This document shows, in pieces, positions 19,191 to 42,467 of a stretch of DNA of 64,000 bases. The stretch is from the NCBI GenBank assembly GCA_947377865.1, contig CANCHK010000001.1, positions 1 to 64,000 of the forward strand. The letters are read 5' to 3'. The position numbers were made by a program, and so were the translations under genes. The notes beneath the pieces were generated by a model. It was not told the origin of the DNA. It saw only the letters and a list, made by a program, of their open reading frames with translations, and did no database searches. This stretch comes from Opitutia bacterium. GTDB taxonomy: Bacteria; Verrucomicrobiota; Verrucomicrobiia; Opitutales; UBA953. Numbering within the stretch: the first letter of the stretch is position 1; each line of letters opens with the position of its first letter.

Positions 19191-19199
19191 CTAATAATG

Positions 19200-19276
19200 G
19201 TAGGGTCAGCACTGCGTGCTGACCTAGGGTCTGTCTTGGGAGATGCAGCTAGGTCGGCACGCAGTGCCGACCCTAC
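19200..19276. repeat. REPIN-like inverted pair of GTAGGG hairpins
   Basis: The left unit GTAGGGTCAGCACTGCGTGC (19200-19224, stem GGTCAGCAC/GTGCTGACC, loop TGC) faces an inverted unit at 19252-19276 (GGTCGGCACGCAGTGCCGAC then CCTAC). Each begins with GTAG at the foot of a hairpin, as in REP sequences mobilised by REP-associated tyrosine transposases. The two stems differ at one pair (A-T against G-C) but each stays self-complementary. Confidence 0.7.
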
Positions 19277-19322
19277 CCGATGCAAACAAGGCCGGACATC
19301 CCAGATGATCTCATTGCCTTCG

Positions 19323-24691: not shown

Positions 24692-25957
24692 ATGGACCGC
24701 CGCTCCTTTCTTACCGCTCTCGGTCTCGCCCCCTTCGCCGCTTCGCCGCTCCTGGCCTCCGCCGAAGCAGCGGGACCCAAAGGCAAAGCCGAGCATTGCA
24801 TCTTCATCTGGCTCGGAGGCGGCATGGGCCAGGTCGACACCTTCGACCCGAAGGCGCTTGGCGACAACAAAGCCACGACCAAGAAGCGCGGTTCCCTCTA
24901 TCCTTCCATCGAGACCTCCGTGCCGGGCGTGCGCCTCTGCGAGCACCTGCCGCGCACGGCCAGGCTCATGGAGCACGTGACCGCGGTCCGCTCGGTCAAC
25001 CACAAGGTCATCGACGAGCACGCCTTCGCGACGAACCTCGTGCACACCGGTCGCATGATCAGCGGCAACGCGACCTATCCCTCCATCGGCTCGATTGTAG
25101 CGAACCGCCGTGGCGCCGCCGACCCGAGCGTCCCGGCCTACATGCTCATTGGCTACCCGAACGTCAGCCGCGGCCCGGGCTTCCTCGGTATCAAGGATGG
25201 CTATATCTACCTCGTCGACACCGAGACCGGCCCGAACGGCTTCACGACGCCGAGCGACATCGATCAGGCGCAGAAGGATCGCCGCCAGGACCTCCTCGGC
25301 TCGCTCGGCGGCAAGGCCCCTGACGGTTCCGCCCTGGCCGAATACGCCGAAGCGCAGCACGAGGCGTTCCGACTCGCGGGCCCCTCGTTCATGCGCCACT
25401 TCGACCTAAAGAAGGAATCGGCCGACACCCGTCAGTCGTACGGCGGTGAGTTCGGCCAGCGCTGCCTCCTTGCCCGTCGCCTGATTCAGGGCGGCGTGCG
25501 CTTCGTCGAAGTCTCCCACAACCTCAACTTCATCAATGGCTCCGGCTGGGACGTGCATAACGATGGCATCAACAACCAGCACATCCTCATCCGTGAGCTG
25601 GACAACGCGATCGCCGGCCTGATCGAAGACCTTAAGCGCACGGGCATGCTCGAGAAGACCCTGCTGGTCATCGGCACGGAGTTCGGCCGCCCGCCGGAGT
25701 TTGACGCCAAAGGCGGACGTGGCCACCAAGGCACGGCCTTCTCAATGATCCTCGCCGGCGGCGGGCTGAAGCACTGCGGTGCCTACGGACAGACCGATGA
25801 CTTTGCCAAGACCGTGATCAAGGATCCCGTCAGCATCCCAGATTTCCACGCCACAATCCTCGCCGCGATGCAGGTCGATACTTCCAAGGATCTCATGGCC
25901 GGCGCGCGTCCAGTGCCCATCACCGACGGCGGCAAGGCGATTGCGAGGCTGTTTTAA
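24692..25957 (+). CDS. DUF1501 protein with Tat-like signal, partner of the second PSD1 protein
   Basis: A 421-residue DUF1501 protein. The N-terminus MDRRSFLTALGLAPFAASPL is a short twin-arginine-type signal. Conserved blocks are IFIWLGGGMGQVDTFDPKA at about 33, DVHNDGINNQ at about 287 and IGTEFGRPPEF then GGRGHQG at about 327-345. Compared with the first DUF1501 protein, the RDHNP block reads RGHQG, so one putative metal-site position differs. The gene lies 4 bp after its PSD1 partner, the usual pairing in Verrucomicrobiota and Planctomycetes. Confidence 0.93.
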   Translation: MDRRSFLTALGLAPFAASPLLASAEAAGPKGKAEHCIFIWLGGGMGQVDTFDPKALGDNKATTKKRGSLYPSIETSVPGVRLCEHLPRTARLMEHVTAVRSVNHKVIDEHAFATNLVHTGRMISGNATYPSIGSIVANRRGAADPSVPAYMLIGYPNVSRGPGFLGIKDGYIYLVDTETGPNGFTTPSDIDQAQKDRRQDLLGSLGGKAPDGSALAEYAEAQHEAFRLAGPSFMRHFDLKKESADTRQSYGGEFGQRCLLARRLIQGGVRFVEVSHNLNFINGSGWDVHNDGINNQHILIRELDNAIAGLIEDLKRTGMLEKTLLVIGTEFGRPPEFDAKGGRGHQGTAFSMILAGGGLKHCGAYGQTDDFAKTVIKDPVSIPDFHATILAAMQVDTSKDLMAGARPVPITDGGKAIARLF

Positions 25958-25970
25958 AGTAAAAGGAGCT

Positions 25971-25993
25971 GGCGGCTAGCGGTTGGCGGTTGG
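25971..25993. repeat. GGCGGTTAGCGGTTGG-type dispersed repeat
   Basis: GGCGGCTAGCGGTTGGCGGTTGG lies 13 nt after the DUF1501 stop. The same word occurs at 34166-34182, inverted at 34349-34365 and 19568-19615, and at 42101-42130. It consistently occupies the outer edge of the composite intergenic elements. Confidence 0.6.
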
Positions 25994-26008
25994 AAAAGAC
26001 GATGCACC

Positions 26009-26190
26009 AAAGGGAAACCGGAGACCGGATGATTGGCTGGGGTGGATGACAGAGGACTGAATTGAGGACAGAGGGCAGATTTCCTGAACCCGTACCTGAA
26101 CCTGATCACCCGTACCTGGCTCCTGATGGCTGAGACCCGAGACCTGAAAATGGGCACCCCAGCCAATCATCCGGTCTCCGGTTCCCCTTT
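26009..26190. repeat. Large hyphenated palindrome with 36-bp arms
   Basis: The left arm (26009-26044) begins AAAGGGAAACCGGAGACCGG and the right arm (26155-26190) is its reverse complement at 35 of 36 positions. The 110-nt centre contains the word ACAGAGGACTGAATTGAGGACAG and several CCCGTACCTG-type pieces. No ORF of note is inside. The CCGGAGACCGGAT core recurs at 36.9 kb and, as arms, at 42146/42335. This is the layout of a MITE or a long cruciform-forming repeat; no flanking target duplication was identified. Confidence 0.8.
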
Positions 26191-26209
26191 GAGTTACCTT
26201 CGGCCCTGG

Positions 26210-26296
26210 GTAGGGACGGCTCTCCGAGCCGTCCGTTCGCCCGGTGAGGTACGAACGTCAATAGGCTCAACGGCGGGCTCGGAGAGCCCGCCCTAC
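26210..26296. repeat. REPIN-like inverted pair of GTAGGG hairpins
   Basis: GTAGGGACGGCTCTCCGAGC (26210-26235, stem CGGCTC/GAGCCG, loop TCC) faces the inverted unit 26271-26296 (CGGCGGGCTCGGAGAGCCCG then CCCTAC). The spacer is 35 nt. It sits between the DUF1501 stop and the 3' end of hemH, so both flanking genes converge on it. A near copy is at 42375-42429. Confidence 0.75.
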
Positions 26297-26306
26297 CTTC
26301 AGCCCC

Positions 26307-27332
26307 TCAGCGGTGGTCTGGCTTCCAGTGATTCACGCGGTTCACGAGATACTTCACGTAGATATCGGAATCGTTGAGGCAAGGAATCTGCGCGAAGTGC
26401 TCGCCGCCGGCATGGATGAAGGTCTCCTTACCTTCTTCGCGGATTTCCTCGAGGGTCTCGAGGCAATCGGACGTGAAAGCGGGGCACATGACCAAGAGGT
26501 TCTTGGTGCCTTCTTCGGGCAGGGCTTCGAGGCGTTTATCGGTATAAGGCGAAACCCACTTCTCACCGGCCAGACGAGACTGGAAGGAGAGTTCGTACTG
26601 GGACTCCTTGAGGCCGGCGGCGGCCACGAAAAGGCGCGTCATCTCGACGCACTGGTGGCGATAGCAGGTCGCCTGACAGGGGCTGTAATGGGAGCAGCAG
26701 TCCTTCATCTTCATGCAATGGGCCTTCGAAGGGTCGCCCTTGCGCAGGTGGCGCTCCGGCAGGCCGTGGTAAGAGAAGAGAAGCTTGTCGAACGGCTTGC
26801 TCAGCCAAGGCTGGGCGGATTCGACCAAGGCGTCGATGTAAGCCGGGTCGTTGTAGAACGGCTGCAGGACGTGATACTTCAGACCAGGGGCGAGACGCTT
26901 GAGTTCTTCCTGCACCTTGACGACGACGGTCTCGTACGAGGACATGGCGTAGTGCGGGTACTGGGGCATCACGAACAGGTCATCGATGCCGGCGGCGATC
27001 ACCTTCTCGACGGCTTCAGCACAGGAGGGCGTGCCGTAACGCATACCCATGATCACCGGCAGGCCCGTGGCCTTCTCCAGCTTGGCGCGCAGCTTGTCGG
27101 TCGTGACCACCAAAGGCGAACCCTCGGGGGTCCAGACGCTGGCGTAGGCGGCGGCGCTCTTCTTCGGACGGGTGCGAAGGATGATGCCTTCCAGGAGCAG
27201 CCAGCGGAGCGGGGCCGGATAATCGATGACGCGGTCGTCGTTCAGGAATTCACGGAGATAGTTCCGCACGTCGGGCACGGAAGTGCTCTTCGGCGAACCA
27301 AGATTCAGCAGCAGGATACCTTTACGGGACAT
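26307..27332 (-). CDS. hemH: Ferrochelatase
   Basis: A 341-residue enzyme that inserts ferrous iron into protoporphyrin IX (or coproporphyrin III) in the last part of haem synthesis. Family blocks: GILLLNLGSPKS at the N-terminus, GMRYGTPS at about 96, FVMPQYPHYAMSSYETV, and FSYHGLPERHLRKGDPS at about 190 with the conserved catalytic His. After this comes a Cys-rich segment, HCMKMKDCCSHYSPCQATCY then RHQC, with six cysteines in about 25 residues, suggesting an internal iron-sulfur cluster. A later block is CPAFTSDCLETLEEI. The ORF track adds 63 codons upstream inside the hemE region; the ATG at 27332 fits the family N-terminus. It is last in hemF-hemE-hemH. Confidence 0.95.
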   Translation of the reverse strand: MSRKGILLLNLGSPKSTSVPDVRNYLREFLNDDRVIDYPAPLRWLLLEGIILRTRPKKSAAAYASVWTPEGSPLVVTTDKLRAKLEKATGLPVIMGMRYGTPSCAEAVEKVIAAGIDDLFVMPQYPHYAMSSYETVVVKVQEELKRLAPGLKYHVLQPFYNDPAYIDALVESAQPWLSKPFDKLLFSYHGLPERHLRKGDPSKAHCMKMKDCCSHYSPCQATCYRHQCVEMTRLFVAAAGLKESQYELSFQSRLAGEKWVSPYTDKRLEALPEEGTKNLLVMCPAFTSDCLETLEEIREEGKETFIHAGGEHFAQIPCLNDSDIYVKYLVNRVNHWKPDHR

Positions 27333-34145: not shown

Positions 34146-34165
34146 GGGGACGAAAACGAGGTGAT

Positions 34166-34365
34166 GGCGGTTAGCGGTTGGGTAAGACACTCCAGGTCCC
34201 GGGTCTCGGCCGTCGGGAACCTGGTCCAGGTGCTCAGGTTCAGGTACAGGTTACAGGCCCGATTCCCGAACCTGATCCTGCACCCGCACCAGCAGCCGAG
34301 ACCTGAGGATGACATCTGGTCTCCGGTTCCCTTGGATGAGAATGCCTTCCCAACCGCTAACCGCC
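34166..34365. repeat. Composite palindromic element with perfect 17-bp outer arms
   Basis: No gene is seen between the terminator and 34399. The outer arms GGCGGTTAGCGGTTGGG (34166-34182) and CCCAACCGCTAACCGCC (34349-34365) are exact reverse complements. Inside are GGTCTCGGC and its inverse GCCGAGACC, CAGGTTCAGG-type words and, near the right end, GGTCTCCGGTTCCC. The element is a nested set of the words found at 26.0 and 42.1-42.3 kb. Confidence 0.7.
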
Positions 34366-34398
34366 AAAACCTTGGGCCATTTCTGGTGTTACCTATGC

Positions 34399-34827
34399 AT
34401 GCGCACCCCTGCCCTCCTCCTCGCCCTTTTTGCCACGACCTCGATCTTCGCTGCCGATGAGCCCAAGGCCGATGCCCCCAAAGCCGAAACGGCCGTCGCC
34501 AAGCCGGCCGCGAAAGCCGCCCCTAAGGCGAAGAAGCTAATGGGCATCCCAGAAATTCCCGAGGGCGTCTCCATCGAGGACGGCGTGAAACTGCAAAACG
34601 CGTGGGTCAAGGCCCAGGAGGACCCCTCCCTCAAGGCCGGCGAAGAGAAGCCGAAGGGCGAAGCGGACGGAAAGAAGAAGAAAGTCAGCCCCCGTGCTGC
34701 CGCCGACGAAGCCCTTACCAAGGCGATGATGAAGGCCGACCCCTCCCTTAAGCCCGAACTCGTCCGCACGTACCTCGAAGCCTCGCACCAGAAGGCGAAA
34801 GACCCGACGAAAGGTAAGAAGAAGTAA
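34399..34827 (+). CDS. Small secreted Ala/Lys-rich protein
   Basis: A 142-residue protein with signal peptide MRTPALLLALFATTSIFAA. The ORF track adds 30 codons that translate the upstream repeat; the ATG at 34399 is chosen for the signal peptide. The mature part has an Ala/Lys/Pro linker, then PEGVSIEDGVKLQNAWVKAQ and a helical module ending ALTKAMMKADPSLKPELVRT, with a lysine tail TKGKKK. The GV(S/T)xED opening and the KADPSL block recur in the neighbouring proteins, so it is read as a shortened member of the local family. Function unknown. Confidence 0.8.
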   Translation: MRTPALLLALFATTSIFAADEPKADAPKAETAVAKPAAKAAPKAKKLMGIPEIPEGVSIEDGVKLQNAWVKAQEDPSLKAGEEKPKGEADGKKKKVSPRAAADEALTKAMMKADPSLKPELVRTYLEASHQKAKDPTKGKKK

Positions 34828-34849
34828 GAGAGCCGCAGAATCGAAGACT

Positions 34850-34950
34850 GAGTCGATGACAGAGGACTGCATCGAGGACAGAATAGACAAAACACCACTC
34901 GGCTAAGCCCCGTTTCGCTCGTTCATCAGTCTGCCCTCTGTCATCGACTC
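34850..34950. repeat. Palindromic spacer element with perfect 16-bp arms
   Basis: GAGTCGATGACAGAGG (34850-34865) and CCTCTGTCATCGACTC (34935-34950) are exact reverse complements separated by 69 nt. The adjoining words (ACTGCATCGAGGACAG and TCCGTCCTCGATTC) extend the symmetry imperfectly. The GATGACAGAGGACTG word also occurs at 26045-26060. This element fills the spacer between two secreted-protein genes. Confidence 0.7.
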
Positions 34951-34984
34951 CGTCCTCGATTCAGCCTTCAATCCTTAATCACTC

Positions 34985-35908: not shown

Positions 35909-35932
35909 GACGCGGCGCCAAGGACGCCGCGA

Positions 35933-35953
35933 GGGGTAGGGGTAGGGGTAGGG
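35933..35953 (+). repeat. GGGGTA repeat with quadruplex potential
   Basis: GGGGTAGGGGTAGGGGTAGG followed by G gives four G-runs within 21 nt, 25 nt after the stop of the preceding gene. It overlaps the left arm of the palindrome at 35941-36066. Confidence 0.6.
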
Positions 35954-36066
35954 ACACGGACAGGAGCCAAGCATGAGGCAAGTCTCGGGGACAGCTACAG
36001 GCTACTCTGCCCTGCGTCTGGATCTGCCCCTAGGTATCGAAACCTGTCCGTGTCCCTACCCCTACC
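35941..36066. repeat. Palindromic spacer element with perfect 24-bp arms
   Basis: The left arm at 35941-35964 (GGTAGGGGTAGGGACACGGA then CAGG) and the right arm at 36043-36066 (CCTGTCCGTGTCCCTACCCC then TACC) are exact reverse complements across all 24 nt, with a 78-nt centre. RNA or single-stranded DNA from this region would form a long stem whose arms include the G-rich and C-rich GGGGTA/TACCCC words. It lies between two genes of the secreted family. Confidence 0.82.
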
Positions 36067-36152
36067 TCTCATCAAACATCCATTCAGCCCTCTTGTTTAG
36101 TATCAACTTCCCCCCGTTGTTGGGGTTAACTTTATAACCCTCCCCTACCCCT

Positions 36153-42079: not shown

Positions 42080-42100
42080 GGACTGATTTAATTAGGTATC

Positions 42101-42130
42101 GGCGGTTGGCGGTTAGCGGTCGGCGGTTGG
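42101..42130. repeat. GGCGGTTAGCGG-type dispersed repeat
   Basis: GGCGGTTGGCGGTTAGCGGT followed by CGGCGGTTGG, starting 21 nt after the NosR/ApbE stop. Same family as 25971, 34166 and the inverted array at 19568. A partial inverted copy (CCCAACCGCTGCC) occurs near 42352. Confidence 0.6.
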
Positions 42131-42145
42131 AGAAAGACAGCGCGC

Positions 42146-42335
42146 CAAAGGGGGACCGGAGACCGGATGGTATTTTCGGGTCTCAGGTCTCGGCTGCAGG
42201 TACGGGGACAGGATCAGGTTCGGGAATCAGTCCCGGGCCCCGAACCTGCATCTGCTCACCCGTACCCGGTTCCCGATCACCGAGACCTGAAAAATGCGAG
42301 CCCCCGCCAATTATCCGGTCTCCGGTTTCCCTTTG
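42146..42335. repeat. Composite palindromic element with 23-bp arms
   Basis: The left arm 42146-42168 and right arm 42313-42335 match as reverse complements at 21 of 23 positions around the core CCGGAGACCGGAT. Inner words are also mirrored: TCAGGTCTCGGC near 42181 against CACCGAGACCTGA near 42278, and GGATCAGGTTCGGG near 42210 against CCCCGAACCTGCATC near 42237. The element is about 190 nt, the same order as the one at 26009-26190, with no gene inside. Confidence 0.72.
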
Positions 42336-42374
42336 AGTTTCGTCTGTGTTCCCAACCGCTGCCACCTGTCTTGG

Positions 42375-42467
42375 GTAGGGACGGCTCTCCGAGCCGTCCG
42401 CACGGCGGGCTCGGAGAGCCACGCCCTACCAGACGCAAGAGCGGCTGACCAAGGGTGGCGACCCTAC
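42375..42467. repeat. Cluster of three GTAGGG hairpins with one REPIN-like pair
   Basis: Unit 42375-42400 is identical to 26210-26235 (GTAGGGACGGCTCTCCGAGC). The inverted partner 42403-42429 equals 26271-26296 except for a change and one extra base near the CCCTAC end. A third unit, GGCTGACCAAGGGTGGCGAC then CCTAC (42443-42467), resembles 19351-19376, but its stem is disrupted by CGA in place of TCAG. The pair spacing shrank from 35 nt at 26 kb to 2 nt here. Confidence 0.7.

Follow-up and report, generated by a model that had tools for sequence, protein, structure and literature searches.

Several kinds of short repeat are known to occupy the spacers between bacterial genes. REPs, REPINs and TIRtrons are known from a wide range of bacteria, and a high enrichment in GTAG repeats has been reported for Opitutus terrae (PMC3733652). 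GTAG REPs and REPINs, which are associated with RAYTs, are high-copy, intergenic, imperfect palindromes (PMC3733652, PMC3116915). The TIRs of the TIRtrons/TIRYTs are long inverted repeats unrelated to GTAG (PMC3733652). Another kind is the bacterial MITEs, such as Correia/NEMIS, RUP and RPE, which are short, non-coding, TIR-bearing elements that are dispersed in spacers and fold end to end (reviewed in PMC2229807).

The locus considered here lies in the window, that is, the whole stretch of 64,000 nucleotides that was analysed. An initial annotation had pointed to a 36-bp inverted repeat with a 110-nt centre, placed between two converging genes. This was confirmed by a repeat search, in which each arm gains one outer base; the resulting 37-nt arms (26008-26044 and 26155-26191) are complementary at 36 of 37 positions (97%) around the same 110-nt centre. 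It is the longest inverted repeat in the 64-kb window among those with arms at most 400 nt apart. The genes do converge, since the repeat lies inside the spacer between the end of DUF1501 (25957, + strand) and the end of hemH (26307, - strand). The features of the region, together with another copy found elsewhere in the window, are as follows.

24692 to 25957, + strand: DUF1501 gene, the upstream neighbour (name taken from the initial annotation)
25970 to 25993, + strand: tandem GGCGGTTAGC/GGCGGTTGG module on the DUF1501 side, linked to the arm via AAAAGACGATGCAC
26008 to 26044, + strand: DUF1501-side arm, a repeat end of type B (CAAAGGGAAACCGGAGACCGGATGATTGGCTGGGG)
26046 to 26081, + strand: first part of the centre, a degenerate GAGGACTGAAT/GACAGAGG module assigned by sequence, with the same module at the same place in the relative G064
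26082 to 26154, + strand: second part of the centre, a degenerate CCTGAACCTGAACC...GAGACCCGAGACCTGAA module, the fixed companion of the type-B right end at many loci
26155 to 26191, - strand: hemH-side arm, a repeat end of type B, found at the same position in most orthologous spacers
26209 to 26297, + strand: separate, adjoining REPIN-like pair of GTAG-tagged imperfect palindromes (GGTAGGGACGGCTCTCCGAGCCGTCC ... CGGGCTCGGAGAGCCCGCCCTACC)
26307 to 27332, - strand: hemH (ferrochelatase) gene, the convergent neighbour (name taken from the initial annotation, orthologues found via protein search)
42146 to 42335, + strand: second copy of the dispersed element in the window, 190 bp long, with arms matching at 25 of 37 positions

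The REPIN-like class of 26209-26297 is also present at several other sites of the genome and in relatives.

The capacity to form a long hairpin, which had likewise been claimed, is borne out by prediction. Against dinucleotide shuffles, the predicted RNA fold of the inverted-repeat region has a z of -7.6, with none of 200 shuffles as good, and the predicted DNA fold of the inverted repeat together with the neighbouring repeat has a z of -9.35. A predicted fold of such stability is in favour of the hairpin being a bidirectional transcription barrier, or a stabiliser of mRNA 3' ends, that was selected between the two convergent genes. This explanation is nevertheless considered unlikely. There is no U-tract, and sites resembling a terminator (a short-loop hairpin followed by a T-run) number zero in 25900-26350; with a centre of 110 nt in addition, an intrinsic (Rho-independent) terminator was rejected. 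Between 25000 and 27500, no Rfam covariance model matched at E values up to 1.

A search for genome copies, also proposed in the initial annotation, revealed that the arms recur genome-wide. With the spacer as query, 125 matches were obtained in the window's own assembly, a 2.32 Mb draft of 128 contigs that is 76% complete. This genome was covered by whole-genome searches along with about 434 kb read as stretches. The outer 21-nt arm motif occurs 61 times in it at up to two mismatches, as against 0 occurrences of the reversed control. In the stretches that were read, the ends come as pairs that face inward. In the first pool of fetched DNA, neighbouring ends within 350 bp of each other formed 19 unique inward pairs, as compared with 2 outward and 3 same-direction pairs. 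The arms, therefore, form the two termini of a defined element.

The anatomy of this element can be read from 55 unit-length copies across the genus, which share an asymmetric consensus. The basic unit is around 76-84 bp, a few copies being slightly longer by local duplications, and comprises a left arm (CAAAGGGAGACCGGAAACCGGRAAGGATGCTGCGG), a loop of 7-15 nt and a right arm (CCCCAGCCAATCATCCGGTCTCCGGTTTCCCTTTGAGTT). Its foot is CAAAGGG/CCCTTTGAGTT, and the G+C content of the consensus is about 56% by count. The two ends of the unit differ at conserved positions; the outer part of the arms is complementary, and the pairing has a conserved A.C mismatch, a conserved internal loop of six columns and a conserved C.C mismatch. 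In the longer copies of 110-280 bp, REPINs or degenerate tandem modules occupy the loop. At one locus (L182), a complete GTAG-tagged REPIN lies exactly within the loop of one unit, and in other long copies a degenerate CCTGAACC-type module, itself often palindromic, fills the centre.

The window copy is a 184-bp composite with two degenerate modules in its centre. Unlike the rest of the family, it carries the right-hand (type B) end on both sides and, because of this, is the most symmetric of the 80 complete copies. Its arms match at 36 of 37 positions, the next best copy reaching 29 of 37 and the median being 25. Copies lacking symmetry, whose existence the initial annotation had held to speak against its reading, are indeed what the genome shows. 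The solitary position of the window copy among the 80 could be taken as a sign that the symmetry arose at the DUF1501-hemH locus itself, by a local inverted duplication of one arm (template switching). Such an origin is very unlikely, as the two arms are not identical: GGGGAACC, the variant found in the hemH-side arm, is also present in the orthologues of G064 and G034, whereas the DUF1501-side arm has the family consensus GGGAAACC. Moreover, in the relative G069 a type-B arm stands on the DUF1501 side along with a similar linker. Taken together, the lone mismatch and the G069 arm make recent copying of the present right arm unlikely.

The symmetry had also been taken to suggest either a recent insertion or selection on structure, and neither suggestion is supported for this copy. 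The hemH-side arm occurs in the corresponding spacer of most relatives, and G069 shares the DUF1501-side arm with the window. As for structure, the family keeps an asymmetric, mismatched hairpin, and its arms are without compensatory covariation (1519 paired cells observed versus 1526 shuffled), which also counts against a selected barrier or stabiliser. On sequence grounds, the conservation of this asymmetry without compensatory changes points to a putative sequence-specific recognition of the ends, and not to selection for a perfect stem.

Of ten DUF1501-hemH spacers that were compared, most have a recognisable hemH-side arm, and the modules on either side of it have been exchanged between species. 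The second arm is absent from this spacer in most relatives, so that a hairpin of the window type cannot form there, a further point against a barrier or stabiliser selected at this site. On the other side, the block made up of the CCTGAACC module and the hemH-side arm (window 26076-26197) is 98% identical to that of G064 (114 nt) and of G034 (107 nt), while the adjoining hemH genes fall below this, at 93.5% and 92% identity, respectively. This favours a selected role, and the high identity could be due to constraint, gene conversion or recombination. More generally, orthologous copies have a median identity of 92.9% as against 87% for the flanking, mostly coding DNA, and are the higher of the two in 33 of 39 pairs, with local alignment biasing the figure upward. 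That the copies are as similar as their flanks or more so could indicate function. The resolution of the hemH tree is insufficient to tell gain of the left arm from its loss. By synteny, no clean pair of empty and filled sites was obtained; several relatives have spacers without the element, in which the modules are too divergent for the junction to be read.

The placement of the family with respect to genes was also considered. In 1.13 Mb, 114 of the 115 ends lying away from stretch edges are intergenic. By approximate counts, with genes called by a simple codon-usage script and some stretches chosen because they bear the element, an end is present in 24 of 92 convergent spacers (26%), 42 of 447 tandem spacers (9%) and 7 of 113 divergent spacers (6%; Fisher p = 1.7e-5). 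The window's genome alone gives 10 of 28 convergent spacers against 21 of 202 (p = 0.001). Such an enrichment would be expected under a 3'-end role or under simple tolerance of the element there. It speaks for the barrier or stabiliser and makes a bidirectional transcription barrier a possible candidate role, as far as sequence can suggest one; yet the absence of promoters in convergent spacers would explain the same bias. In tandem spacers, furthermore, the copies show no preference for the upstream stop and lie midway, at a median of 142 nt from the downstream start versus 139 nt from the upstream stop. On the whole, the element looks parasitic or neutral, rather than a purpose-built transcription barrier.

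The question of how such an element moves leads to another explanation, namely that it is a MITE of the classical type, derived from an IS and mobilised by a DDE transposase, whose target-site duplications have been lost with age. Terminal inverted repeats, a short non-coding body and many copies are all in agreement with this. However, a check for target-site duplications, as the initial annotation had advised, found no signal that stands out at any tested combination of boundary and length in the 55 unit elements, the best z being about 2.3 over many combinations. Nor was an autonomous version, with a gene bounded by the ends, found in the end list of the 76% complete genome or in 1.93 Mb of fetched DNA, the latter holding three inward pairs of ends 1.4-2.6 kb apart that were not individually annotated. 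The conserved asymmetry of the ends and the conserved mismatches of the hairpin are also difficult for this explanation, which is thus held to be improbable.

Among 49 Y1 transposase loci scanned, some of them overlapping, none has a closely flanking pair of ends; isolated ends or complete units are present at a few. The genus does have RAYT-type HUH genes as well as many true REPINs, and the short genes that were inspected are mostly flanked by GGTAGGG (GTAG) REPINs, not by the ends of the element. Three short RAYT genes of about 140-190 aa, at L304 (G062:C72), L299 and L274, have at least one REPIN close on each side. The REP stem sequences vary between RAYT loci, as if there were one repeat class per gene. 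On contig C63 of the window's own genome, a RAYT-type gene (L267 1817-2528) has REPINs on both sides, and these belong to the same class as the inverted repeat GGTAGGGTCAGCACTGCGTGCTGACC at 19199-19277 of the window. Transposase and repeat, therefore, coexist in this genome.

The spacers of the window hold other repeats as well. Those at 34159-34969, 35931-36070 and 42100-42430 are mosaics of degenerate tandem 'words' (AACCGCTAACCGCC, GAGGACTGAATCGAT, CCTGAACCTGAACC, AGGGGTAGGGG and others), which recur across the genus and are swapped between orthologous spacers.

The distribution of the family is narrow. Within the genus, 32 of 55 genomes carry the unit-specific pattern; none of 170 genomes from the rest of the order does. 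A 363-bp query, which includes the REPIN, matches 33 of 36 genomes of the same genus and 2 of 20 others. The hosts are uncultured freshwater Opitutae, their named relatives including the MAGs UBA953 and UBA7397. The 18-nt core has no exact match in viral contigs, and the element was not found in plasmid and phage collections.

Taken together, the two arms of the window's inverted repeat are probably the paired ends of a single copy of a non-coding, dispersed foldback repeat that is confined to a single freshwater genus of the Opitutales, non-autonomous and mostly a tolerated passenger. It is proposed that the family would have spread as a non-autonomous element without target-site duplication, perhaps by single-strand (HUH-type) transposition or by recombination copying, and that modules may later have been exchanged. 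The family would mostly be tolerated in spacers, and transcription at hemH/DUF1501 would be affected only secondarily, if at all. A bolder version, regarded as distinctly unlikely, is that the family represents an undescribed class of non-autonomous foldback elements. In this class, the mismatched hairpin would be recognised as ssDNA and no target duplication made, the loop would serve as a landing site for REPINs or modules, and spacers would be rebuilt by nested palindromes.

That so conspicuous a palindrome is explained as a single member of a family found across the genus cautions against giving such palindromes a regulatory meaning one by one. Together with the mosaic spacers, the family could mark a rapid turnover of spacers. 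It may also be a possible test case for how short repeats for which no transposase is known spread in abundant, uncultured bacteria of fresh water.

No published description of this repeat family was found in the open literature, and the element is best placed by comparison with the systems introduced above. With the bacterial MITEs (PMC2229807) it shares the short, non-coding, TIR-bearing body, the dispersal in spacers and the end-to-end fold; it differs in having no target-site duplication, ends that are not 5'TA, a composition that is not A+T-rich and no parent insertion sequence found. Like the GTAG REPs and REPINs, it is a high-copy intergenic imperfect palindrome. Its foot, however, lacks the GTAG tag, which is present at the palindrome foot of its neighbour (26209-26297); it does not closely flank RAYT genes, and it can itself host a REPIN in its loop. 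The long inverted repeats unrelated to GTAG are a likeness to TIRtrons/TIRYTs. Left ends reading CAAGGGGAGAC contain GGGGAGAC, which is compatible with the reported GGGGWSAS motif (PMC3733652); the left end of most units reads AGGGAGAC, and neither arm of the window copy has GGGGAGAC. The difference here is that no tyrosine transposase gene was found with the element's ends close on both sides. The element is, accordingly, filed as a new family, specific to the genus, among the short palindromic intergenic repeats, which are a known kind; it stands outside the MITEs, REPINs and TIRtrons.
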